From positions 124,001-188,000 of the forward strand of contig JAQGEQ010000272.1 of assembly GCA_034620365.1 (NCBI GenBank): a stretch of 64,000 bases of DNA, read 5' to 3'. Below are positions 10,247 to 63,426 of this stretch, one piece after another. Numbering within the stretch: position 1 is the stretch's first letter; every line of letters starts with the position of its first letter. The stretch is from Pegea sp. RAD2-039 (taxonomy: Eukaryota; Chordata; Thaliacea; Salpida; Salpidae). The notes below the pieces were generated by a model. It ran no database searches. It saw only the letters and a program-made list of their open reading frames with translations, and had not been told where the DNA came from. The position numbers were made by a program, and so were the translations under genes.

Positions 10247-12261
10247 TCATCTTCGTTTTTTTGCTTTGACTTTTCTCTTTAACATTTCTTCTTCCTCTCT
10301 AGCGGCTTCAGCATCTTCTTTTTTGGCGATTCGAAGGCTGTTTTAAAGAATATTTGAATTTAAATACTATCTGTACATCTTTTTTTACAGATTCTACCTT
10401 CTTTTTTCTTCTTTGTCAATTTCTCTAAATCCTACATCCATTCTAGAAAGATCAAATTCACTTTCATGACCATAAGCAGTCCGGTCGTATCCGAACATCT
10501 GCGAGATCTGCTGCGAGGCATAGACATCTGTAGAAAAATATGAAAATAAAAAACATCTCAAGATGAATTGAAACAAACCCATTTCAGGTCCTTCATCATC
10601 TATAAACTCTGACATCTCTGGATCATATTCATCTTCACTATCATCAAAGACTCTTCTAGGTTTTCGAGAAATGGAATTAGGATTGAATCTACGACCCTGA
10701 GCCGAGGCTGCTCTCATCGCGCGTATATGACACTCTTCGCTCGCTGATAAACTCAATCGCGATGACTTAACATCTGCGCAAGTTTTGATGTAAGATTGGA
10801 ATGATGAAAGATGAAATTTACATTTACAGGATGGTTTAGGAAGAGTGTTCTTCACAGCTGGTTTCGATTTCAATCTGAAAAATAATCTTTAATCCTTTCT
10901 TCAATCTCTTATTAATTGTTTACTTTTCAGGAGGTTTATCATCACTTGGATCGACTTTTCGTTTTTGTAATTCAGCTTTTTTGTAGGGATTAAGTCGGAA
11001 GTCGGAAGTTTTCTTCACTTTTTTCTCTTTTGGTAACTTATTTGGATTTGATTGAGGAATTTGAGAATCGCAAAGATCGATTATTCCATCGTTACGTTTT
11101 ACTGGTTTCAGATTAATGTTAGTAGTTGGTTTGGATGGTTTCAGCTTTCGACTTTCCACTCTATCTTTAACTCTTCCACTTGTTGCATTTTCTTTTGACT
11201 TCGAGAACATTTTAGCCAACTTCCGAGCCTTAACTCTTCTTTCCTCATCACTATCATACTGAACAGATCTCTTTTTAGCAATTTTAAAAGATCCAAGCTT
11301 CAATTCTGAGTTTCGAAAACTTTCTGTGAATGAAACAGAGGCAATTATTTATGTAAAATCAAATAAACAAAATTAAAAAACTTTCATACCAGATTTTTTC
11401 AACTTGTCATTCTTTATTTCATAACCTAAACAATTAAACAAGTTTATTAACCAACTTTTAGATGAGAAAATCCACAAAACCCACCTGAAGCTCCGTTATT
11501 TTTCGCTTGCGCAAGTTTTAAGAGACTTTTGTAATCTAAGCTTTTAGGATTAATTGTTTTCTTCGGTATCTTTGGAATTCGTTTTTCTCTATCAGAGTTT
11601 TGTTCGGAGTGTTTTGTGTAAGAGTAGTGTTCATGTTTTTTATTCTAAAAACGAAACAGCAATCAGAAATTCTCGAGTTATGTTGAAAGCTTACCGAAGA
11701 ATTAAGACTCAGCATAAATGCCTGGTGGTTCCTATCTTGCTCTTTAGTTAATTTAGGTCCCTGAGGACAAAAATGCAAAGTAGGCAATTAAAATGTTTCA
11801 GTAAACTTTTATAACAAACTCACTTCATCACCAATATTTGATTTTTTTGATTTCGTTGATTTCATCTTCAACATTTTTTCGCGGGCAGCTTTCTGTTCAT
11901 AAGCTACAAAAAATTTGAAATATTTTATTTAAAAATGACAAAAGTTAGAGAAAGTTTTTGTTAAAAGTTATGAAATACAAAATATACTGCTCTTGTATAT
12001 CATATAATTTGTCGAACATCAGAATTACCTTTTCTTCTTTCTTCTTCCTCCTTTTTTAATTTTAATCTTCGAATAGCAGCTGGGTCAACCTTTTTATTAG
12101 AGCTGACAGACTTTGGTTTGCAGCTGGAGTTCTTTAAAAAAATGTATAATTGAAAGTAAATTGTAATTTAGAAAATCAGATTATTAAAATAGAAAAATAG
12201 AGATTACCTTGCTGGTGACATTTCTTTGTGCTTGAGTCAGTAACTCATTTATACTTAGCAT
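10247..12261 (-). CDS. SPTY2D1: SPT2 chromatin protein / histone H3-H4 chaperone, complete
   Basis: SPT2 binds H3-H4 through its conserved C-terminus and acts in transcription-coupled nucleosome recycling in the nucleus. Eleven exons on the minus strand: 12261-12208, 12131-12029, 11903-11824, 11760-11695, 11644-11485, 11425-11390, 11323-10924, 10874-10828, 10773-10579, 10527-10398, 10337-10247. They sum to 1362 nt, 453 aa, with consistent phases. The N-terminus MLSINELLTQAQR resembles the vertebrate start, followed by a Lys/Arg/Glu-rich region (AIRRLKLKKEEEERRKAYEQ). SLDYKSLLKLAQAKNNG corresponds to the family's conserved LLRLA motif. A basic, disordered middle follows. The C-terminal SPT2 domain is clear: FDDSEDEYDPEMSEFIDDEG, QQISQMFGYDR, then KEEKRSLRIAKKEDAEAAREE and a basic tail KAKKRR. 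Introns are short (about 50 nt). Two of them, 10774-10827 and 10528-10578, are multiples of three and stop-free. Start chosen because the ATG at 12261 opens the conserved N-terminus. Confidence 0.93.
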
Positions 12262-13618: not shown

Positions 13619-16330
13619 CTACATTTCATGAATTTTGTTAGAAATCAAAGTTATAATAAAATAAATAAAACAGAATTTAAAAATTCTAAATCATATTAGT
13701 TACATCCAAAATAAAACATATAACTAAAGAAGGAATTTATAAATTAACAAGTATTATACATGATATAAGTGAATTAATTTACTGAAATCCTTAAAAGATA
13801 CAACCAAGTAAAAATTTCAATAATAAGAAAACAAATAATTTTTGAATTGGTTATTTTTTTTCATTCAGATATCTAATAAACTAAGATGAAAGCTTAAAAG
13901 TGAGAAAAAAACAAACAACTGTTTTTTAAAGTTTTATAAAAACTAAATATGACTAAAATGTCAAAATAGTTAAAATATCAAAAAGTTTAATGATATTTTA
14001 AACACATAATGAGTATCTTAAATTTTATATAAAAATGTTTATAAGATAATGATTAAAATCAAACATAAACAGTTTAGTAAAAAATAGGAACCTTAAGAAA
14101 AATTAAAAAGATGATAACCTTGTTAAGATAAACATTAAAAAATCTAATCTTAAATATAAGATAAACGAATATGATAAATATAGATCTAAGAGCAAAGATG
14201 CTTATATGATACAAAGATATATAAATAAATATTCAATAAAAACAATTGATTGCTTATCTATTTACTTCTGCTAATAACTTTATATATTTATAATGTAATC
14301 TGATGTATAAAATATTTCTTGTCTCTTATCATCAAAAGATTATTTGATATCATAGAAATCTACCATCTTATAAACTCAATAACTTTTTAATTATAAATTT
14401 ATAAGCTAAGTTAAATTATTGTTTGATAATAATAAACATATTAAACTAAAACTTATTCAAGAATAACAACGGCCTATATCAGAAAAATTAAAACAAGCTA
14501 AAAAAGAAAAACATATTCAAAAAACCACTAGCAAAAAAAAAAAAAAAAATTGACATAACAATACAAATTTCCAAGTAACTTCTGAATATAAAGAAGGTAA
14601 TATTGACTAGCTCATGGTGAATTCCCTATTGTAAATTTAAAAATATTTGATTTCGCAAATCAATATCTTTTTTATAGTAGTATTAATAAATTAATTTCGC
14701 AAAAAAAGGCGCCAGAAAGTTATCTGAAATTAATAACAATATTTTTTTATTCTAAGACAGACTTATTTTGAGAAAGCTTAGTTAGTCAACACGACCATTT
14801 AAAAATATTCTAAGGCTTCTGTTATATTTGATACAAATTGAATTAAAAAGTATATTAATTATCTAAAAAAAACCATAGTTATAAAATTAAGACAAGTGCT
14901 ACAGCTTCAAAGCAGCTAGTTATGATTTAACTGGTTTAGGATGAAATTTATTACAAGAATCCACAATTTATATTTTTACACAGTACACGACTTTTCTATA
15001 AAAAAGTTCAATATGTAGTTGTGAATATCTAATTTCATTCTTCTGTAGATTTTTCAACATTTCGTTATTCTATAAAACATTTATCAAAAAAATCATTATC
15101 AATAAGTAACAATTAAACTGCAAATCAATTATCTTATAACTTAAGAACAAAGGAGTTTTGAAAGAACGATATCATAAAAAAATTATACTAGTAGAATTTG
15201 ATAGCCAAATTGAACGTAAAAATCGTATCCTAGAGTATCTAAAACAAACAGTTTTTCAAAAAGAATATAATTTTTTGAAAATTAGTGTCGTATTTTTTTA
15301 CAATAATCAATCAAGTATTTAAGGACTAAATAGCCGAAGCTAGTTCAAATTAAATTTATATACAGCATATATTTTGTTTTATTATTAGTTGTCTTACTTC
15401 ATTTTAACTTGTAAATCTCGTTTGTAGAGTATAAATAGCTTAATAAAGTTTGGGCTGCCAGTAAAACTAACGATTTTAATCTCTAAAAAACTTTCCTGAA
15501 GATCTTTTAAATAATGATGTTTCTCCATTATAGTATAATATAGAATATTTTTCCAAAAATTATTAACTTAGTTTGAATTACTGCAGTTTATTTAAATAGA
15601 TTAATCTATACTTAGTTAAAATAAGTTTTTATTTTTTACCATAGACGATTGTATAGCTTGTAAATATAGTAAGAACTCTAAAAAAAATGATTGGTAAATT
15701 ATTCTAAATAATTATTACTAGTATAGTTTACTAAGTTTATTAAATACCATTTTAGACCACAAATTTTCACGTGAAAGTCAGAGCAGGTTAACTCTAAATT
15801 TAATTTGAATGAACATGAATTGAATCTTATAATATTAATTTTTATTTTTTTGTTAGTTTTGGAAATACTTATTTACCATTGTATTTTATCCTATTTTTAC
15901 TATATGTTTTTAAAGTTTATGGTGTAAAAATATTGAATTTAAATAATTTATTTTGGTGTTTTTGTAATCTAACTAATATATTTTTCTAAATTTATTAAAT
16001 ACATTTTTTCACTAGAAAGATTAATTTCATTTTTATTCTCATTTAAAAAATATTTTAATAAAATTTTTAAATTATTTATAAGTTACTTAACTCAAAAAAT
16101 ATAAAAGTTATTTATACATTTTAATGATTTCATTAAATAAAGTTTCTTATTATTAATTGATTTTTGTTTTAAGTCTTGAAAGCATTAATAACATTTAATA
16201 AAACTGATTTCAGAATGATTTTGATGTTTTTTATTTATTTATTCAAAAAAAATAAACTTAAGCTATTAAATAATATATTTATTATGATTCTATTGAATAT
16301 ATTTTATATTACAATTTAGATTCTCCAAAA
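13619..16330. other. AT-rich intergenic stretch; no gene seen
   Basis: About 2.7 kb of very AT-rich sequence with homopolymer runs (for example around 14536-14550) and no open frame with protein-like composition. Immediately before TIMM22, at 16311-16320, is an acceptor-like ATTTAG about ten bases from the start codon. Confidence 0.55.
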
Positions 16331-16903
16331 ATGTCTTCACATGATAATAAAGATGAAATTATTGAAAAAAAGGATTATACTTTTAAACAATTATCATATG
16401 GAACAGTTTTAAAGTATATGATAGGCGAAGAAAAGATTCCCCGTGTCACTCCGTACCCTAGTTTTGACAAAATTCCAATCCCAGAACAAAGCATTTATGA
16501 GATTCGAATAGAACAAGCTCTAAATAACTGTGCATTTAAAGGAACAATTGGTCTCGTATCTGGAGGAGTATTAGGAGGTTTTATGGGGTTACTCACCTTA
16601 GGAGTTGAATCTCAAGCTACAACTGACCCTTCAAAGACTCCTACTATTCGAGGAACACTCCTTGAGATGAGGCAAAGAATGGGATCTTATGCAAAGAACT
16701 TTGCAACTATTGGATGTGTATTTTCTTTATCTGAATGCATAATTGAAACTCATAGAGGAAAATCAGACTGGAAAAATGGTGCCTTGAGTGGTTTTGTTAC
16801 TGGTGGTTTGATTGGTTTAAGAACTGGTTTAAAAGGAGGACTATTTGGTGGAGCAAGTTTTGCTGTGTTCTCAACTCTAATTGAGTTTTATATTATGGGA
16901 TGA
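16331..16903 (+). CDS. TIMM22: TIM22, mitochondrial inner membrane carrier translocase channel subunit
   Basis: TIM22 forms the channel of the TIM22 complex, which inserts multi-spanning carrier proteins into the mitochondrial inner membrane. Single uninterrupted frame of 190 aa, the usual length. The Tim17/Tim22/Tim23 family core is clear: NCAFKG near residue 66, a glycine-rich membrane segment (VSGGVLGGFMGLLTLG), MRQRMGSYAKNFATIG, SECIIETHRGKSDWKN, and glycine-rich GFVTGGLIGLRTGLKGG. Cys67 and Cys136 match the positions of the conserved disulphide of animal TIM22. The N-terminus is hydrophilic with FKQLSYGTVLKYMIGEE. No introns, unlike the neighbouring genes. A polyadenylation signal AATAAA lies at 16925-16930. 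RTEL1 starts 166 bp downstream on the same strand. Confidence 0.95.
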   Translation: MSSHDNKDEIIEKKDYTFKQLSYGTVLKYMIGEEKIPRVTPYPSFDKIPIPEQSIYEIRIEQALNNCAFKGTIGLVSGGVLGGFMGLLTLGVESQATTDPSKTPTIRGTLLEMRQRMGSYAKNFATIGCVFSLSECIIETHRGKSDWKNGALSGFVTGGLIGLRTGLKGGLFGGASFAVFSTLIEFYIMG

Positions 16904-25574: not shown

Positions 25575-33629
<8,055 letters not shown>

Positions 33630-43873: not shown

Positions 43874-46775
43874 TCACAATCTTGTAGAATACTCTAAAAT
43901 ATCAAAAGGTGTTTGGTGGTTTCTTCCAATGACATAAACAAGTGAAAATCCAATAATATTCCACCCACACATCCCAACAAGCATATAACTCTAGAAAGAA
44001 GCATTTTAAAATATATTCAAAAATTAATTGCTTTTTTACACAGATTTCAATTTTTTTGTGATATCATGATGTAATCGTTGTTGTTTAAAACAACTTACCA
44101 AATCAAACGGATTTTGTTCAAAGATTAATCCAGCAACTGGAGGAACTGCCATACTTCCTAATCCATTACCCAATGTGAAGATGAAAACATAACTACTCGA
44201 TACGTTTGTAATTTGAGATACGAATGAGATTCCTATACAACAAATTGTTGTTCAGTTTGTTCAATTTTTAAAGTAAAAACAAACCAGCTGAATAGAGTGT
44301 GGCTTGACATAGACCAAAAAACAAAGAGACGAGCCATATTATTAAACTTACTTCTTCTCCTACGATAGAAAATATCACCTAAAAACAAACGAAAACTTTA
44401 AAATCAAAATTGACATAAATTGTAGTAGTAGAAACTTCATACTTTTTCAACAGCATCTGAATAACCTTAAAAATGTCGAAGGAATTTGAAATATATTAGC
44501 TACAAACCAAAGCAATAGTTATCCCAGTTAGATCGTAAATTATCATAGTTTTTGGTGAGAAATATTTGGTGATGAATATTCCACAACCTCTCCCTATAAC
44601 CAAACCGGTGAAATATAAAGTGTTTAGCCAAGCAGCATTTGCTATCTAAAGTTTAAAGAATTTTTTTAACTTTAATGTGTGAGTTTCTTTTTGAGATATT
44701 TTTCTTTTAATCTTAGATTGCTTAATATCAATTTAAAGTTAAATTTATGTGAAATATTTAGAATATAAAGCTAAGTTGTTAAATAATGGTTAGTTCTAAT
44801 GATCAGTTATTAATTAATTATTAACTAAATTGCTCACCGAAAAAGAAAGCCCCGAACATAAAGCTATTGAATAGATGTAGCTGTCATATATTCTTTGAAT
44901 TCCAGCAACTGCGGCATAATAAAATATAACTGCTAAGAAAAGAAGATAAACATCTTTAAGGGGTTCTTCTTTCAGGAAAAGTCTTTTTTTTTGTTCAAAT
45001 TTTTCTTCACTCGCAATTTTCTCTTCAACATTTAAAAGTGATAAAATCACAAGAACAGCTCCACAGGGTACCATGATGCACCCAGTGATGACATATGGCC
45101 AAATAACAGGGCTGTAAGCGCTGGAAGTTCCGTACAAGGAAGGATCTAGTGTTGAGTTGACGTTAGAACCTGGACAACTTGAATCATCAGTAGTTCCTTG
45201 TTCTGATTCAACCATTTCTAAAAACGGAGATGCTGAAAACAAACAATAAAATTACTAAAAGCTCTAGGAGAAATCTTGATCGGGTTTCATCTAAAATTTT
45301 CGTAATTATAGAATAAAGAAACTTTGAGAAAGTTTTGTTTAATTTAATTCATTTACACAAATTGCTTCCAAGGAAAAGCTCAAAGTAGAATTATGTGATT
45401 GATAAAACTTAAAATAAAAAAAGTGCTTATGCTCAAAGTCCTCTTGTAGTTTTTGCTCAAAATATGTTGATGCTGTTTCCAAATAACTAGTTTAGTTAAT
45501 TAGTTATAAAATGAATAATTGATTTAAGCATGATATTAAAAGTCTAATAAATTTCAAAACTTCAAACTTTTTCACTCAATGAAAGATTCTGTGAAAATCA
45601 GGCTGATCTGCTACAAACTTGTTGTTATGATGTCATTTTTATTTGGTTCAAAAGGTTTTCTAACAAGTTTTCTTATTGCATTCTCGTTCTAGTACAACAA
45701 GCTTATTGAAATTAACAAAATTTGTAAAATAAAAAAAGTCCAAGCTTGTTTGATAGTCAACAAAATTCACAGCATTTTATAACTTAAAAACATTCTTTGA
45801 GACTGTAAATCGTCGTAAACATCTTTATACTGAGCCTCAGAAAATTCTGATAATTGTGTTTTTTGAAACAACTTTACAATCAAAGGTCAGAATTACAAAT
45901 ATATAATTTTTTACCAACCTATTACAGGGGCAATAGCTGACCCAAGGCTTACAGCGAAATGATAGGCTTGCATAATAGAACGGGTCCCTTTTTCTCCCCA
46001 TGTTTTGAAAAACAAAGCAACAACACCTAAATACAAAAATCAGTAGATGTAAAATTATTTGAAAATTATTTTAGAGACCTGAATCTAAATAACCAGATGC
46101 AAAACCACCAACTGATACAGAAAATATCAAACCAATTAAATCAGTTATCCAAGGTGTTGCTATCATCAGAGCACCAGCTACAACGACAACAATTGCTGTG
46201 AACAAATAACAAAGTAAAGTTTTAGATCAACGTTTCAAAACAGATTTATTTGAAATTATGTTTCCCACCTATTGTTAGTAAAGGACGAAACCCTTTGATA
46301 GAATTCATTAATAAACTACATAAGCAAGCTCCTATTAATTGACCAGCTGCTCTTCCAGAAAATATGAAAGAAGCTGAAGCAACTGAAGAATGAGTGTTTT
46401 CAGCTAGAAATAAGAGAGTTGTTCCTGTCATTGATTGATACATTCCCTACAAATTAAAAGATTTAATAACTTTTTTATTTGTAGCGAAAATCGAAAATTT
46501 GTTCATAAAAACTGTTAAAATATGTTGTTATAATAAAAAGTCAGCTCCAAGAATAACTGAATCTTATTTTTGCGATTTTATTTCCCAAACTGAAATATTT
46601 TAAGTAAACTGAGAAAAGTTTGCAAGTAATCTTTTTGGTGAACATCCTTCAATTAATTTATGAAAATACTAAATGAGTCTGATTTAAAAATTAAACTTAC
46701 CAGTCCAAATCTTATTAAAAATATATTCAAAAAAAAGGCTATTGTCCATACTTTTCTCGATTCAAATAAACTCAT
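43874..46775 (-). CDS. MFS transporter, NaGLT1/MFSD4-like, copy A
   Basis: Major facilitator superfamily protein resembling the sodium-dependent glucose transporter 1/MFSD4 group; a polytopic membrane carrier, substrate unknown. Nine exons: 46775-46701, 46446-46269, 46195-46079, 46026-45919, 45232-44838, 44645-44508, 44378-44285, 44232-44099, 43990-43874; 1356 nt, 451 aa. Start MSLFESRKVWTIAFF leads straight into TM1. IFSGRAAGQLIGACL corresponds to the arginine-bearing loop of TM2/3. A segment GVVALFFKTWGEKG precedes the mid-protein TM6 ending PVIGASPFLEM. A polar loop with NST follows, then TM7. The second half has IGRGCGIFI (matching the NaGLT1 CRGLAIF motif), SAGISFVSQ, and IFTLGNGLGSMAVPPVAG, close to the vertebrate GASLGEMAIPAV. 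It shares all intron positions with copies B and C but is clearly more diverged. Head-to-tail with copy B. Confidence 0.88.
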
Positions 46776-48556: not shown

Positions 48557-51500
48557 TTAAAGACGTTCCAAATAAACAGTACCAGAGGAAGTTATTCGCT
48601 TTTGAATATGTCTCTTTCCCATTAAAAGCATCCAAAAAACAATAGGAACGTTTATGAGAGCCATACCAAGTAGTAAGTGTACCTAAGATGAGTATTTTTA
48701 AATAAAAATTGTAGATAAAATAAATAAAAAACAGAAATTAAAAGGCAAAATTAAGAAGAAATTTTGTTGATTAAAATAGAATATAAAAATTAAAACTAAA
48801 TGAATTACTAAGTTATATAAATTATTTGTCAATAATTTATTTAAAAAGTATCTTATGCAATTCATAATTGACCATTAAAGTTTCAAAGTTTAATCTATAA
48901 GAAGCAAGTTCAAGCAACAGCAAACTTTTGGAAACCTACCACATTAAAAGGATTTTTTTCAAATATTTCACCAGCAATTGCAGGCAAAGCCATGCTTCCA
49001 ATAGTGTTTCCAATCGCAAAAATGAAAATATAAGTTGAAGAAACTTTTGTGACCGTTGAAGACCAAGAAATACCTATCATTTAATATTTAGAAAAAAAAA
49101 ACTTTCAACCTTTCTACATCGACACATAACTTACCACTTGGGTACAATGTTGCAACAAAAAAACCATGAAAAAATGAAATAAACCAAACAAGAAGTGGAA
49201 TATAACTTCCAAAGATTTCAAATATTATCTGAAACAAAAAACTTTAGAGCTAAACAAAACTGTTGCTGATTTACCATTGCAATGCAAGTGCCAACAAGAT
49301 CATATAAAATTAATAGAGTTGGCTGGAAGAATGTAGAGAAAAGTATACCAGCTAATCTTCCGATTAAGAATCCAATCCAAAATACAGTATTAAGCCAAGC
49401 TGCATCAGTTACCTAAATGAATAAAGTTGATTTTCTCATATTGTTTACTGAATACATCGTCTTCAACGAGCTGTTTGAATTTGAAAAAACTGAAGTAATT
49501 TCAACCAGAAGTGTTTACTAGACAGATTAAATATTTTCTTGTAGGCAATCAGCAAAACGTAATTTGATTTCAGCAAAAATAATTTGTTGTGTTTACTTTT
49601 CAGCAGTTAAAGTCGGTATCAAAAACCGGCTTTCACGGTTCACTTTGCTACAAACCACGGAATGTTTGTGAACAATGATTTAATCTTCACTAGATAGCAT
49701 CTTGTTGATCAACTACTTTAGTGTGCCAACTGTGTTGTTATTTTACAACGAATTACATAAAAATATTTTGGTTTATCTGATACATTTGCACTAAATACAA
49801 GTTTACAAAATGTATTAACTTACAGTAAACGCTAAGCTTGAACATAACGCTATTGAGTAGATATAACTTTGATATATTAATTCAAGTCCAACCACGAAGC
49901 AGTAATGACATATAATAGGTAGAAACAACCAAATAACATCTTTTAATGGTTCTTCAACTGCTTCTTTACTTGCTTCTTTATCTAACTTCTTTCTACATTT
50001 CAACTCAGCTTTTACAAGGGCTAAGTAAACCATGGCAGCCCCTGTTAGTATAGTAAAGCTTCCTGATATAACGTAAGTCCAGCCAACAGGGTTGAAGTTT
50101 TGTGTCATGTTTGTGTTGCTACTTTCAGTAACCATTAGATGAATTGTTGATAGTATTCCATCATTAGATTGACTTTGTGGACAAGTAGTTTCGGTAGTAG
50201 CATCTGCTTCAGCCATCTCCAAAAAAGGATTTGCTGTTGACAAAACAAATTACAACTTCCTTACAGAGTTTTTTCTTACTTTGCAAGTTAGTGTTATTAT
50301 TTTTGAAAAAAGTAATATTAAAAAAACCTAAGATATTTCATAGTCAGGCACACATTATTAGACTTATGTTTAGAAAAAATTAATAAATTAACCAAAACAT
50401 GAATTAAATCTACTTTATACCGAATATTGGAGCTAATACTGCTCCTATGCCAAATGCAAAATGGAAAGATTGTATATAAGGTCTTGACTCCTTTTCACCC
50501 CATAAGTTAAAATATAGGGCTTGCATTCCTGCCATAGAATGCTTAAATGAAATCTTATTTAAATTTTTAACATCTTAAATATGAGCTTACCTGCATCGAG
50601 ATAACCAAACAATAGCCCAGTTATCGAAGATATTACTACAAGGGCAGCTAGATTATGAATCCATGGAACAATTAACATAAGTATACCAGAAAGAACAACT
50701 CCAAGACCTAATGAAAAGTTTAAAGCTGAAATTTTAGTGTTTGCATAAAATTTTAATTAAACTTTTCTCATTTCAAACTTCAGAAAAAGCATCAACACAA
50801 TTCCAAAGCTAATGTCATTAAAGCTTCTAGGAGAGAACAGCGGTTTATTCTAACTACTGTTTGTTGTGTTTAACTTTGCTGCAGTTACAACAATCTACTA
50901 AGTTTTCCACGGTCACTTGTATATGTTAACTTTTCTACTTAAAAATTTACTAAAAGTCGTTGATGTTTATATCATATATTCTCTATTTAACTGTAAAATG
51001 TGAGATTGGATTTGGAGTTGTCATAACAAGATTAATAATATCAATCAAAAGAGAAATGAAAATTGACAGAAATACTTTTAGCTCGTAATAGCTTAATGTT
51101 ACAACAAGTAAATGGTCAGATGAAAAAGTCTTTTTTAATCTTACCAACACTTAGCAAAGGCTTATAGTTTTTATACAATCGAATGAGAGCTCCACATCCA
51201 ACAGACCCAATAAAAAAACCAGCAGCTCTGCCTGTGAAGATGTAGGACACAGATGAAACTGATGAGTTTACATTTTCAGCTAGATAGAGAAGCGTTGGTC
51301 CAGATAAAGAAGAAAATAGTCCCTGTCAATAATTCTCTCAATAAAATGTCAAGTTTGGAGAAAAAATTGAATTACCTGAATTAATCTAGCTATTAATTCT
51401 TAATATAACTTTTTAAAAGTTATAAATTTTATTAGCTTAAAAGCTTTATGAACTTTTTGCAAAATAAATTTAATTAATCAGCTTTGAAATACCAACTATT

Positions 51501-51670
51501 GAGCCGATTATTAATCCAGCTAACATTCAGAAAATTGTACACAAGTACCAACATTTTAATTGAAGTTATTCATAAAATATAATTGAATAACTCACCGATC
51601 CAACTTGAGTCAATGATACAACGATAACAATAGTTAAAGTCCAAATCTTTCTTGATTCCACTCTCCACAT
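48557..51670 (-). CDS. MFS transporter, NaGLT1/MFSD4-like, copy B
   Basis: Paralogue of copy A with identical exon architecture: 51670-51596, 51322-51145, 50707-50591, 50528-50421, 50233-49824, 49412-49275, 49228-49135, 49073-48940, 48682-48557; 1380 nt, 459 aa. Start MWRVESRKIWTLTIVIVVSL gives TM1. YIFTGRAAGFFIGSVGCG is the TM2/3 arginine loop. FGYLDAG precedes the MQALYFNLWGEKESRPY loop, followed by FHFAFGIGAVLAPIF. The mid-protein extracellular loop after ANPFLEM carries several Asn glycosylation sequons (NMT among them). The second half has GFLIGRLAGILFS, WSSTVTKVSSTY and FAIGNTIGSMALPAIAG. The C-terminus ends KRHIQKRITSSGTVYLERL. Nearly identical over most of its length, introns included, to inverted copy C at 60475-63426. 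Substrate is unknown; hexose is a family-based guess only. Confidence 0.9.
48905..51345 (-). repeat. Inverted repeat arm (partner of 60671-63085)
   Basis: Reverse-complement partner of the copy C arm. Intron sequences match closely, for example the intron between exons 2 and 3 (50708-51144) and most of the intron between exons 5 and 6 (49413-49823). Confidence 0.85.
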
Positions 51671-54600
51671 TTTGTGTCTTCATCTATTAATGAATTACCT
51701 TATTGAACATTTTTGTTTTTATTATAAATTATTAATTAATGATTTACTTTTAATTGAATGCTTAAATCGTTATTTTTTCTGATAAATCAGCTATTTATTT
51801 GTACTTCTGATAAGAGCTTTTGTCTTTAATCGCAGCAGGCTTACGAATCGCGTATCCATCATAAAAATGAGTGATTCGATTTCACTCTTTAAATTGTAAG
51901 ACTTTCAAAAATTATAGTCACTTAGAAAAGCTAGTTTGCTTTTAAAGCTATAAAAGAAATATTATAATTTAATTGTTTAAAAAGCCCAGAAAATATTTTA
52001 TTTCATGATTCAATGTTTGAGTTGAATTGTTTCTGATAATTCAGAATAGAATTTTAATAATATCATTAGTTATTTATGTAAATCAAATACACTACTTTTA
52101 TCACCAACTAAGGTATCTTTTAACAGTGCAAAGAAGATCTAAATGCTGCATCAGACAAATTCATTAGGATATTTTAAACAATCAAAAATACTCTAACCGA
52201 CAAAAAATGTGAAGATTATTTTTTGTATGCTTGAGTAATCTTTATTTCGGTTAGCATTAAACTTCAGACAAGCGAGATTCCCTTAAGTATGACTTGTTTA
52301 TGCTTCAGGTATCTTAAAAACATTCGAAGAGATTTTCAAAAACGAATAAAATCTATGAAAGCAAAGTTTTGTTTTTTCAACCCACTAGAAAAAACTTTCA
52401 ATGTCTTAAATAAATATTTCAAACGTTGTTTTTATCTGTAATATGCTAAATATAGTAATCAAGACATATGATTCTTTAAAAAGTATACTTTGACTTTTAT
52501 TGTACAATGATGTAATACAAAATGCTAAAAAGTTGAGATAAAATGTGTCAAAGTCTTACGCTTCTTAATACTTAATTTAAAAGTGTAGTTATTACAATAA
52601 TCAATTACAAATCTCTAAACTTATAAGATTTCTAACTATTACAGAAGAATGAAAAGTAACTAAATCACTATAAACAAGTAACAAGAGATGAAGTGTTTAA
52701 GGTTTGATTTTACATTTTAATATTTGTTGAAACTTATTGTTCTAAATAAAAGATTGAAGTTTAAAAAGCCTTGTAAAAATTGGAATTTTATTGGTTGATA
52801 TAAAATTGTTGAATAAAGCTTATATTTGAAAGGTTGTAGCTTGTTACATCAAACAAACTTGTACAAGAAACTAAAACTTCTTAGTCTTCAGGTAAACCTT
52901 AAACTTATTTTAAAGTTTAAAATGTTATTTTATTTCTGCAATATCATTGTTAGTTAGTTTGAAAATATTTTGAAATATTTGGTGGTTTGCTGTACAAAAA
53001 ATTTCAAAACAAGTATTTCAACTCACTAATACAAAAGTTTAGTCGAAAGATTAATATTATTTGAGAACTGGACACAAAAGACAGAATAAAAAGTTTGTTG
53101 ACTTTTTATATGCTGGTATTTCAGAGTCTTATTTACTAATATTTACCATTACTAAAAAGGTACTTTTCACAAAAGAATCGAATATATGTACCATTATTAA
53201 GTTGGTATTGTTCAAATAGTTAATTTTTCAGTAACTTTATCTAATGAGTTTTACGTTATATAGAAAATAACTACTAACTTTAAAATTGTAATAAAATCTC
53301 AAACAAAATCTGAAAAGTATTTAATTAATGATTTATTTTGTTTTTTTCAGGTTTATAATAGTTGGTCTGTAACATAACATTTGGTTTTGTTGCATTGTTC
53401 ATTTTAAAGAAATATTGCTGACGATAAAACTTCCTTTGTAATTTTCCTGTATTCTTTATATGAGATAACCAAATATATTAATTTATAGTTCCTCATAGAA
53501 ATTCTTGTTGACGTTTAGGGAGAGTCTATAAATACATAAAAAAGTACAGGGATAGGTTTCTATAAATGAATATTCGTATACTGTAAAATTTGCAAAATAT
53601 TTGTTCATATTCCTAGAAATTTAGTAAACAAACAACTTGAATAACATTTAAAATTCTGATAAAAAGACAAATGTTATATAAAATTAATTTAAATCTAAAT
53701 TTTATCAAGCATAATTGAAAAGTTTTAAAACTTATAGAACTTGAATGGTTTGTGTTTTTTAGGTTTAGTTAAAGTCGGTTTTATCGATGTCTTCTAACTT
53801 TATTTGTCTAAACCAAAAGCATTCACAAAAGCCCATTTAGAAAAACTTTTAAACTTCACAAAAGTAGATTTTATTATCAATTCTGATAGAGTTAAAAGAA
53901 GCAATTAACTAGAATTAAATTTTGTTGCATAATTGCTTAGTATCATTAAAATACGTTCAATAGAATTTCAACTTAATTTTTTTTAATTTAAAAAAGATCT
54001 AAAAACGTTAGTTTTCTTCAAATTTAAAAAATGAAAATTCTTTTTTACATTTCTGCCAAACTTTTTCATAGAAATGAATTAAAACATTTGTTAAGCATAA
54101 AAGAGCTTTCTAGTCTTTTGCAAAACGTAGATGAATAAGCCTTAAAAGGTTTGAGAATATTTTTAAACGTTTCTTTCAACCTTATAAATTAACCTAATAA
54201 TCTTAGCTTACCTAAAAGAAGATTCAGAAGAATTATTGTATTTTTTTGGTATCAAGTTATTATAAACTTTTGAAATAAAAATGTTACTTAATCATATAAA
54301 GATCGAAAAAAGTTTTAGCGATAACGTAATGACATCAGAAATTATAGCCTGAGGCATGTAGCAACTTTCAACAAACAATTTATGCTGAGAAATGATTTTT
54401 GAAAATTATATTTATAAAAATCATTCTATGAAAACCATGAATAATACTTAATGTTAATTTTATTATTTCTTCTGATTGCAAAAAATATTGTATTTTTCTT
54501 TAAATGAAACAACAAATATGTTTTAAAATCATAAAAATGTAATCATAAAAATACATTTGTTTGGAACTTACTGAATAATGTGACATATTTACTATTTTAT

Positions 54601-55345
54601 ACAATTTTGTATAATAATACTAAATGATAAAATAATAAATAATAAATTTTAAACCGTTTAGTAGTCAGAACAAAATGTTTTATTAATCAAAATAAGATTT
54701 AAAAAAGATTGTTAGTTAGTTCATTTAGTCAAGAAAATTATATTAAATGTTCTGAGCTTTATAGGAACATTAAAAATGTAATTTTTCTTCAGTATAAAAC
54801 TTTATAAAGTAAATAGTTGTTAGAAAAAATATTACATAGAATTAATTTCAATTAGCTGTTAGTCAGATAATTTAAACTAAAATGTTTGTTGCATTATTAA
54901 CACTTAAAGCCGATGATAAAAACTTATAATCATACAGTAACAATTTTAATGACGTGTTTTTAACCAGCTCCAGTGTTTGTTCAAATTTGTTCTTAAAAAA
55001 CTTTCATAAGAAAAATACTTTCAGACTTTTGCTTCATTTAAAATGAAATGTTGATGTATTAAAGTTAGCTTTAAAATTGTATTGAGAGCATTGTATCTAT
55101 TCTATAAAGTCAAGAATATAGAATAAGTAAAAAGAGAGAACAGTTAAAAACTGAAAAAAATACACCGCACAACATAATTCGAGAAAAAAAGGTTTCATTA
55201 CTTGGCTTTAGTTTATGATTATCTGCAGAATCATTCAAGAAGTTATATTACTAAGCTCAAATAAGAATTTATTTCAACTTCCTTCCTTACAAGTGTTTGT
55301 TTAGTTGATGTAAAGTTTTATATTTCAGTTTTAAAAGCTAAAAGC
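51671..55345. other. Divergent intergenic region between MFS copy B and SLC6
   Basis: About 3.7 kb, AT-rich, between two divergently transcribed genes, so it should hold both promoters. No open frame with convincing composition. A TATTTCAG acceptor-like site at 55321-55328 lies 18 bases before the SLC6 start codon, indicating a 5' UTR intron or a trans-splice site. Confidence 0.45.
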
Positions 55346-58300
55346 ATGGAAGGGCCACAAAAAGAGGTAAGACATCATTTAGTAGCATAAAAAGTAATTA
55401 GTTTGCTTAAACTTCATTATCTAGCTTTAATTTTTTCTGAGACTTAACTAAAATGTATATTTCAAATACCCTGCTTCTAGTTGATAACAAGTTTCAACAA
55501 CCTTTAGCTGAATCATTCAAACTTTTGTACAAAAATCTTTCAAGTTTTAGTTTGTCGGATAAATCTCATTTATTAGTTAGAAGCATTTTATTTTGCTGAA
55601 TTTTTCTAATTACTTTTAATTATAATTTAAAACAGAATAAAAAATTTTATATAAAACTAAGTTTGCACTAAGTAGTAAACTAACTTACAAACCTTTCTTA
55701 GATAAGAATATCAGTAAAGTTTTATTGATTAATAAGAAAGATTAAACTTACAAAACTAAGAAGACAAACACTTGAAAACCTTATAAGTTGTTTTAATTAT
55801 ATAAACTTGATTTCGTGTCTTATAATTTAAATGTTTTCTTTATTTTTTTCCAACTAAAAAATTCAGTTTTATTTGAAGTATGAATATTTGATAAAAATGA
55901 AGCTTGATAATTCTTTTTTAATTGAAATTATTTTATACTTTAAAAATTGAATTAGAAAAATAAGAGTAGAGCTCGCTATTTTTTAACTTTAAACTTAATT
56001 TTATTTTCTTACTTTTATTTTTATTTTTTTGTACTATAATTTTGCAGCAAAAGATGTAAGAAAATTAAAGAAACTCTTTTAGGTTAGATCGAAATCGTAA
56101 AGAAAATTGTTTAAGCTCAGAATTTTACTTCTATCTTTTCTCACAGACTTGATTATCTTGATTAATAAGCTTGTAACATAAACGCTGAACTCAATTATAA
56201 ATAAAAATGAAATGCGTCATCATACTATATGACTCATTAGAAACATTGAAATAAATCCAAATAAATCATTTTCAAAATTTTCGATTGTATGAAAAGTCAA
56301 GTTAAATAATTGTTTTCTATTTTCTTTTTTTGCAGGTTGAAAACGGTACAAGGGTTGAACATAATTCAGACGAAGCTTCAAAAGTTGCAGAAGGTGAAGA
56401 AAGAGAACAATGGGGAAGCCAAGTAGAATTTCTCTTGTCTTGTATTGGGTATTGTGTTGGTTTAGGAAATGTTTGGCGTTTTCCTTACCTAGCATATGAT
56501 AATGGAGGGGGTAGGTTCCTCGTAGATTGAAGATGTTTATTTTAATCACATTTATTAATCACAGGAGCCTTTCTCATTCCTTATCTAATTATGTTAGTCA
56601 TTTGTGGTATCCCATTGTTTTTCATGGAACTTTCATTTGGACAGTTTTGTGGACTTGGACCTGTAACGGCTTGGGGAGCAGTTCCTATTTTTAAAGGTCA
56701 GTATTATTCTTATTTTAGTTTTTTTGAAGTTATTAAAAACTCAGGTATTGGATTTGGAATGGTTGTAGTCTCTTTTCTTGTGTGTATATATTACAATATA
56801 ATCATTTCATGGGCATTATACTACCTTTTTGCATCCTTTCAATCTCGACTTCCATGGACACAGTGTGATCAATGGTGGAATAATCAATCCAGATGCGTAA
56901 GCTCTTTTCTCAGCTTCTAATACTTTATTAGAAGGTTTTTTTATAGGATTTGAACATCACAAGTACGGCAGAAGACTATTGGAAGTAAGAAATTAGAAGT
57001 TTTTTATCCTCAATAACAGTTCATTTGCAGCAATCGAGTTTTGAGAATTAACCAAAGTGACGGGTTGGGGGATCCTGGAAAAGTTCTTTGGGATCAGGCT
57101 CTTTGCTTATTGCTGTCTTGGATTATTGTCTTTTTGTGTTTAGCCAAAGGAGTTAAAGGAACTGGAAAAGTTCGTTTTTTAAGTTTATTTAGAGATTTTA
57201 CTAAAAACAAACAACATTTAGGTGGTTTACTTTACTGCAACTTTTCCTTACCTCATCCTGTTGATACTTTTAGTTCGTGGATGTACTTTAGATGGGGCCT
57301 TAGATGGGATTATATACTATGTACGGCCACAATGGCCAAAGCTCAAAGATCCAGCTGTGAGTCTACAGTTTTGTTTTTATTTTGTAACTTTCGATTATAT
57401 GTTGAATAGGTCTGGACTGCAGCTGCTACTCAGATATTCTACTCTCTCGGAGTGTCCTTTGGAGGTCTGCTTACATTTGCTTCTTACAACAAGTTTAAGA
57501 ACAACATTTATAGGTGATAAATTTCGATCTAAGATTTTTTTAATATTTCAAGCCTAAAAAGGCCAATAAAAATAATAATTTCAGAGATACATTGATTGTA
57601 TCTATTGGAAACTGTGCAACAAGTATCTTTGCCGGCTTTGTTATCTTCTCTATCATTGGACATATGGCTTACAAGCAAGATAAAAAGGTTGAAAAAGTTA
57701 TTGATTCAGGTAATCGTAGACACTCAAAATTTTATTAAATAAATTTCGGCTTTTTAAGGTCCTGGCCTGGCTTTTATAGCATACCCATCTGCAGTTGCTT
57801 TACTGCCAGCTCCTCAGCTGTGGTCGATTTTGTTCTTTTTCATGTTACTAACTCTTGGTCTAGATAGCCAGGTAATAAAATATCACAATTACTAATAAGG
57901 CTTAATTTTTTATTAAATTTCAGTTTGCTATGTTAGAAACAGTAGTTACTGGGCTTATGGATGAGTTTCCAAGATTCTTCAAAGGCAGAAAGATGTACCT
58001 AACTCTTGGAATCTCAATTATTTGCTTTTTGTTAGGACTTTTAATAGTAACAGAAGTAATTATCTTAATCATTATACTTTAGTAGATTATCTTTAACACT
58101 TTAAAATTGTTAGGGTGGTATGTATTGGTTCAACTTGTACAATAATTATTCAGCCTGGTATGGACTTCTTGTACTAGCATTATGCATGTGCCTCGCTATC
58201 AATATTGGTTATGGTGCGAAAAATAGTTTTTATGTTTAAGTTTTTATTATAGATTTAATGTATCTAAATAATTATTATACATAAATAAATGTAAACAATA

Positions 58301-59125
58301 AGTGAAAATATTAATGAAATATTTTATTTATTTGTTTATTTTATTCAACGTATGAATTTTGGTAAGATAATAAAACGTTTTAAGCATTTTATATCTCAAA
58401 TAAACTTTATCAAACTCAAATAGTTTTATAGTATTTAAACTTCAAGCTAACTTATTTGAAATTCAAAATGTCAAAATGTTTTGAAAAACTGCTCTAATGA
58501 TATTTCAAATCATATCAATCAGTTTTATTTTAGCTAACTTGTTAAATAACTTAATCTTTAACAGGATTCTTTTTTACCTACAAAGGACGATTTAATGATG
58601 ATATAAAAATGATGTTAGGCTTTAAACCTAATTGGTATTTCAAAATAACATGGAACTTTATAACACCAATAGCATTACTGGTTTGTTTCAAAAAACATTC
58701 ATCAACTTTTTCATACTTTTCTGCTTTTAGCTTTTGATTATATCATCCGGAATAACTTTTACTGAAACTGACTTTGGAGATAAATACTCAGGTTGGGGGA
58801 ATAAATTAGGATTATGTATGAGTGTTTCCTGTGCTGTGGTTGTCCCTCTCTACATGATTGGACTAGTCATAAAAACTGTTATGTCTGGAGGAAGTCTAAT
58901 TGAAGTAATTCATTTTAAACAAAATACTTTTATTCGTGTTAACTAATTTTGTTACAGTTATTCAAGCCAAACTCTAAATGGAGACCTTCAGATAAAACAA
59001 TTCCTTATGACAGACTTACCGGTGCTAAACAGGCGTCTCAGATGAATCCAACTTATGCATATTATAACAATCAAGGATTTAACTATACTAATGAAGAAGA
59101 TAAGAATATTAGCTCTGCTTTTTAA
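55346..59125 (+). CDS. SLC6 family Na+/Cl- dependent neurotransmitter/amino acid transporter
   Basis: LeuT-fold plasma-membrane symporter. Fifteen exons: 55346-55366, 56336-56510, 56565-56696, 56745-56896, 56947-56984, 57031-57169, 57222-57356, 57410-57513, 57585-57709, 57759-57871, 57924-58055, 58114-58213, 58565-58680, 58731-58904, 58958-59125; 1824 nt, 607 aa, usual length. [15 protein letters not shown] leads into TM1 [21 protein letters not shown] Gly in place of the monoamine Asp places it with the glycine/proline/GABA class. TM2 is [12 protein letters not shown]2 has a Cys pair (TQCDQWW, SRC) and sequons NQS, NIT, NQS. TM6 reads [19 protein letters not shown], and the Na2/Cl region LGLDSQFAMLET is intact. 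TM10-12 include NIGYGFFF. The tail contains [13 protein letters not shown] and ends SSAF. Intron 3 (56697-56744) is 48 nt and stop-free. Flanked by inverted MFS copies B and C. Substrate is not determined. Confidence 0.93.
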
Positions 59126-60474
59126 GGTTGATATCTTCAGTATTTATCGATTTGTTAAGTTTTGTTTGGTTGTTATAAAAACATTTTTTTAATTGTTTAC
59201 TTTTCAGATTAGTCTTTAATTTTTGTTTACATATGAAAACTAAGTTCTGTATAAAGCTTAAAAGTTATATAAATATAAATAAATATAAGACCTTTTCGAA
59301 CAATTGTTCTGAACTTTAGTTTCACTTGTAATGATGGAATGACTAATTTTTTTGAAACAAAATAAAACCAGCTTCAGCAAATTCTTTATTTCTATATTTG
59401 AAAATAATGTTTATCGGCAAATAGTATTAAGCTTTCCTGATAAAATCTAAAACTATTTTTCAAAAAAACGTTTCGGTTAGTTTGACAATCTATCACTTTA
59501 AACTTTTATGATATCTCTTCAAAGATTTTTTTTCACTTATGGTACACTTTTATAAACTAATTCTTAATTACTTCTTACTTTGCATAATAAATCTTACTCA
59601 GAACCTACAATTGCGTTTTTTATTTATTTTAAGTGAGACAATAAACCAAAAGTAAGTATTTATCAAAACAGAATTGTTTAGATTTTTATATAAACTATTA
59701 AAAAAGAATGAATTTTAATACTTAAAGACTTTCAAATATCAATATTACTGTTATAGGATTTTTCAATGATTAATAAACATTATTGTATGAAGATCAATTG
59801 AAAAATATTAGTAACCATTCAAGACAAACTGCATTTGTTAAAGTAGTACAACGCCCAACATTCATTTGAAAAAGATTTAATAAAAATCAAGCAAGCAATT
59901 AAAAAACAAGAGTTGATACTATAACCACAACATCGCTTATATATAATTTTTCAAGCAAGAAATTATGGCAAAAACTGTACCGTGGGCTGATACATCAAGA
60001 TATATCAAGATAATTGAGGTTAATGATCTGAAAAATAATTATAGTAAAGAATGCTTCAACTGTATGAGTCACAGCATGATTTACACCAAGTTACTAATGA
60101 TAAAACTAAAAGGGTAATCATAAAAAAAAGCAACAATAAAAATATTTTAAACTAAGAAGAAATACTTTGATTACATAAAACAAGCTTAAGACATTTAAAA
60201 ACTTAGTTTTTTTTATAAAAAAAACACATATTTTAGCGAATAAAATCTGTTATTCGCATTTTTATCTAGCTAGGCAAACTTAAAATGTAATTAAACTATA
60301 TTTATCATGTACACGTTAAATTATAATCAAATTAAAATCTCTACAGAATTTATTAATCATTCATATGCAGTGTTTTTCCGAAAGTTCAATGAATTGAAGC
60401 AATAAATGATCTGTAAATCATTAATCGATTTTAGTATTAAAAAAGATTATTTATCAAATTTTAGCATTCATATA
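59126..60474. other. Spacer between SLC6 and MFS copy C; no gene seen
   Basis: About 1.35 kb, AT-rich. An AATAAA-type signal near 59276 can serve SLC6. An AATTTTAG acceptor-like site lies about ten bases before the copy C start codon. Nothing else is recognised. Confidence 0.5.
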
Positions 60475-63426
60475 ATGAAGAAGATGAAATCAAATAGGAT
60501 TTGGACAGCGGTTATTGTCTCTGTTGTATCTCTGACGAGAATAGGATCGGTGAGATGATTGTATTTTAATGAGTCATTTAAAGAAAGCAAAATGAGAAGC
60601 TTCATTAATAGTTTTTAACCCAATTAATTAAGTTAGCTGATTTAGGAAATCAAACAAACAGATGATGATTTTTTATTGAGAGAATTATTGACAGGGACTA
60701 TTTTCCTCTTTATCTGGACCAACACTTCTCTATCTAGCTGAAAATGTAAACTCATCAGTTTCATCTGTGTCCTACATCTTCACAGGCAGAGCTGCTGGAT
60801 TTTTTATTGGGTCTGTTGGATGTGGAGCTCTCATTCGATTGTATAAAAACTATAAGCCTTTGCTAAGTGTTGGTAAGATTAAAAAAGACTTTTTCATCTG
60901 ACCATTTACTTGTTGCAGCATTAAACTATTACGAGCTAAAAGTATTTCTGTCAATTTTCATTTCTCTTTTGATTGATATTATTAATCTTGTTATGACAAC
61001 TCCAAATCCAATCTTACATTTTACAGTTAAATAGAGAATATATGATATAACCATCAACGACTTTTACTAAATTTTTAAGTGGAAACGTTAACATATACAA
61101 GTGACCGTGGAAAAATTAGTAGATTGTTGCAACTGCAGCAAAGTTAAACACAACAAACAGTAGTTAGAATAAACCGCTATTCTCTACTAGAAGCTTTAAT
61201 GACATTAGCTTTGGAATTGTGTTGATGCTTTTTCTGAAGTTTGAAATGAGAAAAGTTTAATTAAAATTTTATGCAAACACTAAAATTTCAGTTTTAAACT
61301 TTTCATTAGGTCTTGGAGTTGTTCTTTCTGGTATACTTATGTTAATTGTTCCATGGATTCATAATCTAGCTGCCCTTGTAGTAATATCTTCGATAACTGG
61401 GCTATTGTTTGGCTATCTCGATGCAGGTAAGCTCATATTTAAAATGTTAAAAATCTAAATAAGATTTCATTTAAGCATTCTATGACAGGAATTCAATCAT
61501 TATATTTAAGCTTATGGGGTGAAAAGGAGTCAAGACCTTATTTACAATCTTTCCATTTTGCATTTGCTATTGGAGCAGTTTTAGCTCCAATAATTGGTAT
61601 AGTAATTGTTCAATAAATGTTTTAAATAGCCTAATGGTTTAAACAAAAATACCGAAATATTTGATTTTTCTAATATTACTATTTTCAAAAATAATAACAC
61701 TAACTTGCAAAGTAAGAAAAAACTCTGTAAGGAAGTTGTAATTTGTTTTGTCAACAGCAAATCCTTTTTTGGAGATGGCTGAAGCAGATGCTACTACCGA
61801 AACTACTTGTCCACAAAGTCAATCTAATGATGGAATACTATCAACAACTCATCTAATGGTTACTGAAAGTAGTAACACAAACATGACACAAAACTTCAAC
61901 CCTGTTGGCTGGACTTACGTTATATCAGGAAGCTTTACTATACTAACAGGGGCTGCCATGGTTTACTTAGCTCTTGTAAAAGCTGAGTTGAAATGTAAAA
62001 AGAAGTTAGATAAAGAAGCAAGTAAAGAAGCAGTTGAAGAACCATTAAAAGATGTTATTTGGTTGTTTCTACCTATTATATTTTATTACTGCTTCGTGGT
62101 TGGACTTGAATTAATATATCAAAGTTATATCTACTCAATAGCGTTATGTTCAAGCTTAGCGTTTACTGTAAGTTAATACATTTTGTAAACTTGTATTTAG
62201 TGCAAATGTATCAGATAAACCAAAATATTTTAATGTAATTCGTTGTAAAATAACAACACAATTGGCACACTAAAGTAGTTGATCAACAAGATGCTATCTA
62301 GTGAAGATTAAATCATTGTTCACAAACATTCCGTGGTTTGTAGGAAAGTGAACCGTGAAAGCCGGTGTTTGATACCGACTTTAACTGCTGAAAAGTAAAC
62401 ACAACAAATTATTTTTGTTGAAATCAAATTACTTTTTGCTGATTGCCTACAAAAAAATATTTAATCTGTCTAATAAACACTTCTGGTTGAAATTACTTCA
62501 GTTTTTTCAAATTCAAACAGCTCGTTGAAGACGATGTATTCAGTAAACAATATGAGAAAATCAACTTTATTCATTTAGGTAACTGATGCAGCTTGGCTTA
62601 ATACTGTATTTTGGATTGGATTTTTAATCGGAAGATTAGCTGGTATACTTTTCTCTACATTCTTCCAGCCAACTCTATTAATTTTATATGATCTTGTTGG
62701 CACTTGCATTGCAATGGTAAATCAACAACAGTTTTGTTTAGCTCTAAAGTTTTTTGTTTCAGATAATATTTGAAATCTTTGGAAGTTATATTCCACTTCT
62801 TGTTTGGTTTATTTCATTTTTTCATGGTTTTTTTGTTGCAACATTGTACCCAAGTGGTAAGTTATGTGTCGATGTAGAAAGGTTGAAAGTTTTTTTTTCT
62901 AAATATTAAATGATAGGTATTTCTTGGTCTTCAACGGTTACAAAAGTTTCTTCAACTTATATTTTTGTTTTTGCGATTGGAAACACTATTGGAAGCATGG
63001 CTTTGCCTGCAATTGCTGGTGAAATATTTGAAAAAAATCCTTTTAATGTGGTAGGTTTCCAACAGTTTGCTGTTGCTTGAACTTGCTGTTTGTAAACTTA
63101 GCTTAAACTTAGTTTTTAAATTGTTATTTCCATCCAACATATTTCTTAAATGGTATTCAGTTTTTAAAGATAAACTATGTTTTAAATAAAACCATAAAAG
63201 TTTCTTGAAAATAGTAAATAGCTTTCAAAAATTCTTTACTGAAAACATAAATATTAGCTGTTTGATAATGCAAGCTAATAAAACTTATTTACTTTAATAG
63301 GTTCATTTGTTAGTTGGAATGGCTGTAATAAATATTCCTATTGTATTCTGGATGTTGGTAATAGGTAAAAGACACATTCAATTACGTGATACACCTTCGG
63401 ATTTAGTTTTTTTGGAACGTTTTTAA
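60475..63426 (+). CDS. MFS transporter, NaGLT1/MFSD4-like, copy C (inverted near-duplicate of copy B)
   Basis: Exons 60475-60549, 60695-60872, 61310-61426, 61489-61596, 61758-62167, 62579-62716, 62763-62856, 62917-63050, 63301-63426; 1380 nt, 459 aa. Every exon has the same length as in copy B. The first exon is diverged (MKKMKSNRIWTAVIVSVVSL against MWRVESRKIWTLTIVIVVSL), as is exon 4 (IQSLYLSLWG against MQALYFNLWG) and the last exon (RDTPSDLVFLERF at the C-terminus). Exons 2, 3, 5, 6, 7 and 8 and the introns between most of them are almost identical to copy B. In the 137-residue exon 5 only about four residues differ. Motifs are retained (TGRAAGFFIG, IGRLAGILFS, GNTIGSMALPAIAG), and no frameshift or stop is present, so the gene looks functional. 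Substrate unknown. Confidence 0.9.
60671..63085 (+). repeat. Inverted repeat arm (with 48905-51345 on the minus strand)
   Basis: From the TTTTATTGAGAGAATTATTG sequence before exon 2 to about 35 bases past exon 8, this segment matches the reverse complement of the copy B gene. Two diverged patches interrupt the match: exon 4 with the first part of intron 4, about 61489-61670, and everything outside the ends. The arms are about 2.4 kb and separated by about 9.3 kb that contain SLC6. Confidence 0.85.

Follow-up and report, generated by a model that had tools for sequence, protein, structure and literature searches.

In a 64,000-nucleotide stretch of the salp Pegea sp. RAD2-039 (assembly GCA_034620365.1, contig JAQGEQ010000272.1, forward-strand positions 124,001 to 188,000; hereafter the window) we examined two inverted MFS transporter genes, copies B and C, which lie on either side of a gene of the SLC6 type and alternate along their length between near-identical and strongly diverged sequence. 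Ectopic gene conversion between these old inverted paralogues is, with high confidence, the best explanation of the mosaic, because blocks differing at 1.4-2.3 % of positions adjoin blocks with 20-47 % mismatch within the same genes. The pair has two of the features by which ectopic conversion is recognised, namely near-identity confined to a tract within homologous sequence that is older and diverged, and homogenised introns and silent sites.

Near-identical and diverged blocks in an inverted gene pair

Comparison of the window with itself returned a sole repeat pair at E ≤ 1e-10, positions 48903-51346 against 63087-60671, inverted and 96.0 % identical over 2446 columns. The arms are separated by 9.3 kb from tract edge to tract edge, and a genome search with the DNA of copy C listed the places of B and C only, such counts being lower bounds. 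Exon lengths are identical in the two gene models (75, 178, 117, 108, 410, 138, 94, 134 and 126 bases), and in both every donor is GT, every acceptor is AG and the frame is open. Block borders between B and C were placed by eye after the alignment had been inspected (Table 1), and mismatch figures are given as mismatches over aligned columns of B against C. Tract 1 has 18/784 mismatches (97.7 % identity) and tract 2 has 20/1405 with one gap column (98.6 % identity), introns included in each, and the tract introns match as closely as the tract exons. Outside the tracts mismatches rise to 26/75 (35 %) in exon 1, 51/121 with 128 gap columns in the remainder of intron 1, 97/207 in the remainder of intron 8, 36/126 (29 %) in exon 9 and 252/436 in the 3′ flank, while the interior patch between the tracts has 46/227 (20 %) and 26 gap columns. 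These measurements bear out a first-pass annotation of this DNA in finding exons 2-3 and late intron 4 to exon 8 near-identical with their introns, and exon 1 and the last intron and exon clearly diverged.

Table 1 Positions in the window of the MFS gene copies, the blocks compared between B and C, and the gene between the arms
Feature	Positions	Strand	Description
MFS copy A	43874..46775	-	Gene model, same nine-exon layout; diverged
MFS copy B	48557..51670	-	Gene model, nine exons, 459 amino acids
Exons of copy B	51670-51596, 51322-51145, 50707-50591, 50528-50421, 50233-49824, 49412-49275, 49228-49135, 49073-48940, 48682-48557	-	Exons 1 to 9 in order
MFS copy C	60475..63426	+	Gene model, nine exons, 459 amino acids; Pfam MFS_1 PF07690
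Tract 1 in B	50563..51346	-	Final 24 bases of intron 1 through to late intron 3
Tract 1 in C	60671..61454	+	Pairs with B 51346-50563
Interior patch in B	50310..50562	-	Final 34 bases of intron 3, all of exon 4 and the early part of intron 4
Interior patch in C	61455..61681	+	Pairs with B 50562-50310
Tract 2 in B	48904..50309	-	From late intron 4 to the 36th base of intron 8
Tract 2 in C	61682..63086	+	Pairs with B 50309-48904
SLC6-type (sodium:neurotransmitter symporter) gene	56306..59125	+	Lies between the arms; approximate extent judged by eye

Over the 2945 columns of the genes, which hold 294 mismatches, the best low-mismatch segment scored 86.9, whereas none of 2000 shuffled alignments exceeded 12.1. 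Mismatches are clustered inside the homogenised span as well, the densest 230 columns holding 46 of its 84 mismatches compared with at most 23 in 5000 shuffles. A two-state hidden Markov model fitted to 4183 columns, which include the poorly alignable flanks, was 693 log units better than a single rate (log-likelihood -1554 against -2247); it bounded the homogenised span by B 51346 on one side and B 48904 on the other, with a diverged stretch inside at B 50424-50324. Divergence along the alignment, on whose unevenness the conversion proposal hung, is thus non-uniform by block counts, by the two-state model, by shuffling and by silent sites.

An assembly artefact, whether through haplotype duplication of one arm, chimerism or polishing that overwrote it, is very improbable. 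Both arms stand on one contig of 618,970 bases (in a 105.7-Mb genome of 387 contigs), and each has its own flanks, as the mismatches on the 3′ side attest, its own first and last exons and its own patch; polishing would not be expected to turn divergence of the kind found in exons 1 and 9 into 2 %.

Silent sites and the age of copies B and C

Silent sites and differences were obtained by the Nei-Gojobori count and rounded for Fisher tests. Silent differences over sites amount to 9.5/17.8 in exon 1 and 18.8/27.8 in exon 9, to 4/79.3 in exons 2-3 and 5/170.5 in exons 5-8, and to 6/22.3 in exon 4. Exons 1 and 9 together (about 28/46) thus differ sharply from the tract exons (9/250; p=1.4e-19, odds ratio 41.7). 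Exons 2-8 could in principle face stronger protein constraint than exons 1 and 9, as a reading with one duplication of uniform age and uneven constraint along the gene would have it. We give this reading practically no weight because silent sites are themselves unequal across the blocks and the tract introns are as alike as the coding sequence. The exclusion of a single duplication of uniform age, argued in the first-pass annotation from introns, therefore holds for silent sites also.

Copy A, which lies nearby, has 54-58 % nucleotide identity with B and C in exons 2-8. Sites common to B and C alone form the largest class in exons 1, 4 and 9 (18, 39 and 38 respectively), outnumbering those at which A agrees with B (13, 5 and 9) or with C (7, 5 and 18), so B and C are sister copies in their diverged blocks too. 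Nonsynonymous and synonymous divergence (dN/dS, as pairs of values) is 0.36/0.93 in exon 1, 0.09/0.33 in exon 4 and 0.21/1.74 in exon 9, and because dS reaches 0.93 and 1.74 in exons 1 and 9 the split between B and C predates their near-identity. Conversion with copy A was considered and rejected, as A matches B or C in three exon pieces each and no more, at 69-78 %. A genome search with the DNA of A listed only A and missed the B and C pieces, a result that excludes near copies only.

A further intron-bearing relative, copy D (L017, 2986-7127), was modelled by eye with seven exons; its introns 1-4 have the order and phase seen in the other three copies, the exon 5 region has an extra intron and exons 6-9 are fused. 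The tracts contain 14 exonic differences; A has the B state at five of them and the C state at four, the other five being uninformative, a split too even to favour either direction of conversion. At the nine sites informative in A, copy D supports A at five, of which two are B-like and three C-like, contradicts it at two and matches neither state at two. Both copies seem to have changed on their own since homogenisation, single sites being only weakly polarised by outgroups as distant as A and D. Three related MFS genes were also found elsewhere in the genome as single stop-to-stop frames of 449, 450 and 496 residues (L018, L019 and L020, on contigs C6, C3 and C293), and these may be old retrocopies because they are single frames where A, B and C have nine exons.

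The interior patch and the proposed conversion

The interior patch is heterogeneous. The first-pass annotation had described exon 4 together with early intron 4 as diverged, which is correct for the patch as a whole; exon 4 alone is 95/108 identical (12 % mismatch) and thus intermediate, and the strong interior divergence is in early intron 4. The interior stretch called by the hidden Markov model comprises the very end of exon 4 and the early part of intron 4, and the model keeps most of exon 4 in its low-mismatch state. Silent divergence in exon 4 exceeds that of the tract exons (6/22 against 9/250, p=0.0004) and falls below that of exons 1 and 9 (6/22 against 28/46, p=0.019). Within the exon, B 50506-50451 has one mismatch with C in 56 bases; this stretch, which was chosen post hoc, spans 18 codons whose 10.0 silent sites are all unchanged (P=6e-5 given the rate of exons 1 and 9). 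From these counts the patch itself is probably a mosaic. In genome searches each patch found itself and its partner only, at 76 %, making a third paralogue that is still present and close an unlikely donor; the search scored the best candidates only and a more distant donor may escape it.

We infer a repair mechanism and a number of events as follows. B and C are old inverted paralogues, and their ends had diverged to near silent saturation when one arm, after a break, was most likely repaired from the other as template, in one or a few ectopic conversion events. The copied block would begin late in intron 1 and end early in intron 8, taking the introns with it and leaving exon 1, exon 9 and the flanks outside, and both copies would have gained substitutions after copying. 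Exon 4 and early intron 4 could lie between two tracts or have escaped inside one, perhaps with a short third tract. Because the divergence of tracts 1 and 2 does not differ significantly (2.3 % against 1.4 %, p=0.17), a single event passing over the patch cannot be distinguished from two of about the same age.

Three points weigh against this account. The outer borders fall in introns that are hardly alignable beyond the tracts, as the counts for the remainders of introns 1 and 8 show, so that pairing would lack a substrate there; such borders require either that exchange took place while the introns still matched or that copying ended without homology. Exon 4 is no plain unconverted remnant, because its silent divergence is below that of exons 1 and 9 and most of it is in the low state of the model. 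The evidence comes from one genome. A search for a longer inverted repeat towards the SLC6-type gene gave only one 70-base match (70 %, E=0.005), at exon 1 itself.

In a variant of this account conversion may have been repeated, perhaps continuing, since the duplication, such that the middle never drifted far and the ends and patch drifted beyond recombination; we consider this a real possibility, somewhat short of an even chance. Outer borders in barely alignable introns are what a shrinking zone of homology would leave, and the two tracts are similarly diverged, but 38 substitutions are present across them and continued exchange is not readable from one genome. The first-pass annotation was right that conversion between inverted repeats explains the mosaic; its description of that conversion as ongoing goes further than a single genome, which displays past homogenisation only, with tracts that differ by 1.4-2.3 %.

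Base composition gives a lead only. GC-biased conversion would raise the G+C content of tract introns, and this is 28.7 % in B and 28.0 % in C compared with 19.8 % and 22.8 % in the diverged introns (p=5e-5 and 0.04), in a window of 27.4 % G+C, although position is confounded with block and the B and C tracts are not independent. Introns of copy A are between the two classes at 24.2 %. Among the 18 strong/weak differences of tract 2 the G/C state is in B at 14 and in C at four (p=0.03, uncorrected), and in tract 1 it is in each copy at eight.

Protein differences, neighbouring genes and known systems

The product of C matches Pfam MFS_1 (PF07690, E 3.4e-13, 49.7 bits, gathering score 33.4) over residues 20-160; that of B is 92 % identical to it, the Pfam assignment having been made on C only. 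In a simple hydropathy scan each protein gave 13 windows, of which the weakest scored 1.25, where 12 membrane-spanning segments are the criterion for MFS. The C product had no match among PDB sequences at E ≤ 0.01, and a profile of the four copies had one at E ≤ 1, a partial match to monocarboxylate transporter 1 (E 0.0037). A search of NCBIfam matched no model. Presumably B and C resemble MFSD4B/NAGLT1, of the MFSD4/NAGLT1-like subfamily.

Most residue differences between B and C (30 of 35) fall in exons 1 (11), 4 (7) and 9 (12). By hydropathy exon 1 encodes the N-terminus and much of the first transmembrane segment (TM1), exon 4 (residues 124-160) the end of TM4, the 4-5 loop and TM5, and exon 9 TM12 and the tail. 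Changes to TM1 and the C-terminus had been anticipated from the diverged blocks; the loop before TM6, also named then, is encoded by exon 5 within tract 2 and has one residue difference, I190T. Codons 268-269 of B exon 5 (49824-50233), in the seventh hydrophobic segment, encode Cys-His in B only and Phe-Tyr in A and C.

Selection might, in addition to conversion, keep exons 1, 4 and 9 apart by purging conversions there, which would account for the concentration of residue differences in these exons; the authors of a study of gibbon L/M opsins infer selection of this type there (PMC3213168). We regard this as unlikely. In all three exons dN is less than dS, giving no sign of selection for difference, although with exons this short the test is weak; the patch extends into intron 4, and two adjacent tracts would leave an island without selection. 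The earlier suggestion that the diverged patches preserve functional differences is not supported on the first two of these grounds, and the patch may be merely a gap between tracts.

More elaborate, and a decidedly long shot, is a history in which crossover as well as conversion took place between the arms, flipping the SLC6-type gene and swapping the first exons of the two transporters, with selection holding TM1, TM4-5 and TM12 with the tail apart in the face of repeated homogenisation. There is a faint hint of a swap, in that B is closer to A in exon 1 but C is closer in exon 9 (Fisher p=0.04, uncorrected, on the site counts given above). In our judgement neither exon is significant alone and unequal rates would give the same pattern.

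Pfam was run on 10 of 37 frames (≥ 80 amino acids or chosen SLC6 frames). SNF (PF00209) was found in three of the four frames submitted from the SLC6-type gene, one frame of which matches solved SLC6 transporters by phmmer. Neighbouring frames match an SPT2 chromatin protein (10394-10888, minus strand), a member of the Tim17/22/23 family (16274-16903, plus strand) and a zf-C4 nuclear-receptor-type domain (29435-30319, plus strand); three further neighbouring frames given to Pfam had no match. The introns, the SLC6-type gene and the nuclear-receptor-type domain are in keeping with an animal source, and a search for cytochrome oxidase I found nothing.

A number of known systems resemble the B/C pair in part. 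A review covering Drosophila Amy and Hsp70 argues that mirror-image pairs favour conversion over crossover, since crossovers give harmful rearrangements (PMC3924832). Amy-p and Amy-d are linked palindromic paralogues with ectopic conversion and independently evolving flanks; concerted evolution is described there as confined to the coding sequence, whereas homogenisation in B and C takes in introns and omits exons 1 and 9. Hsp70 shares the mirror-image orientation, but B and C have an SLC6-type gene between the arms and an internal diverged patch (same review). The gibbon L/M opsins likewise have conversion-homogenised introns beside more diverged exons; according to that study, those genes are arrayed, the tracts are mostly intronic, 94 individuals were sampled and selection was inferred (PMC3213168), while in B and C whole exons are homogenised and one genome is available. 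The copepod paralogues GOT1p1 and GOT1p2 of Tigriopus californicus, likewise under conversion, form a mosaic in which highly diverged and little diverged stretches alternate, with several populations behind GOT1 and one genome behind B and C (PMC3728101).

Among the papers listed by literature searches whose terms did not include the organism name, in part only a share of the hits, none describes the B/C pair by its title and the beginning of its abstract. It is a further instance of a known process, interlocus conversion, and a clean, intron-inclusive case of it in inverted paralogues. Trees or dates based on exons 2-8 would set the duplication of B and C far too late, and it is exons 1 and 9 that reveal its old age. 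The interior island provides a small test case for distinguishing an island kept by selection from a mere gap between tracts.

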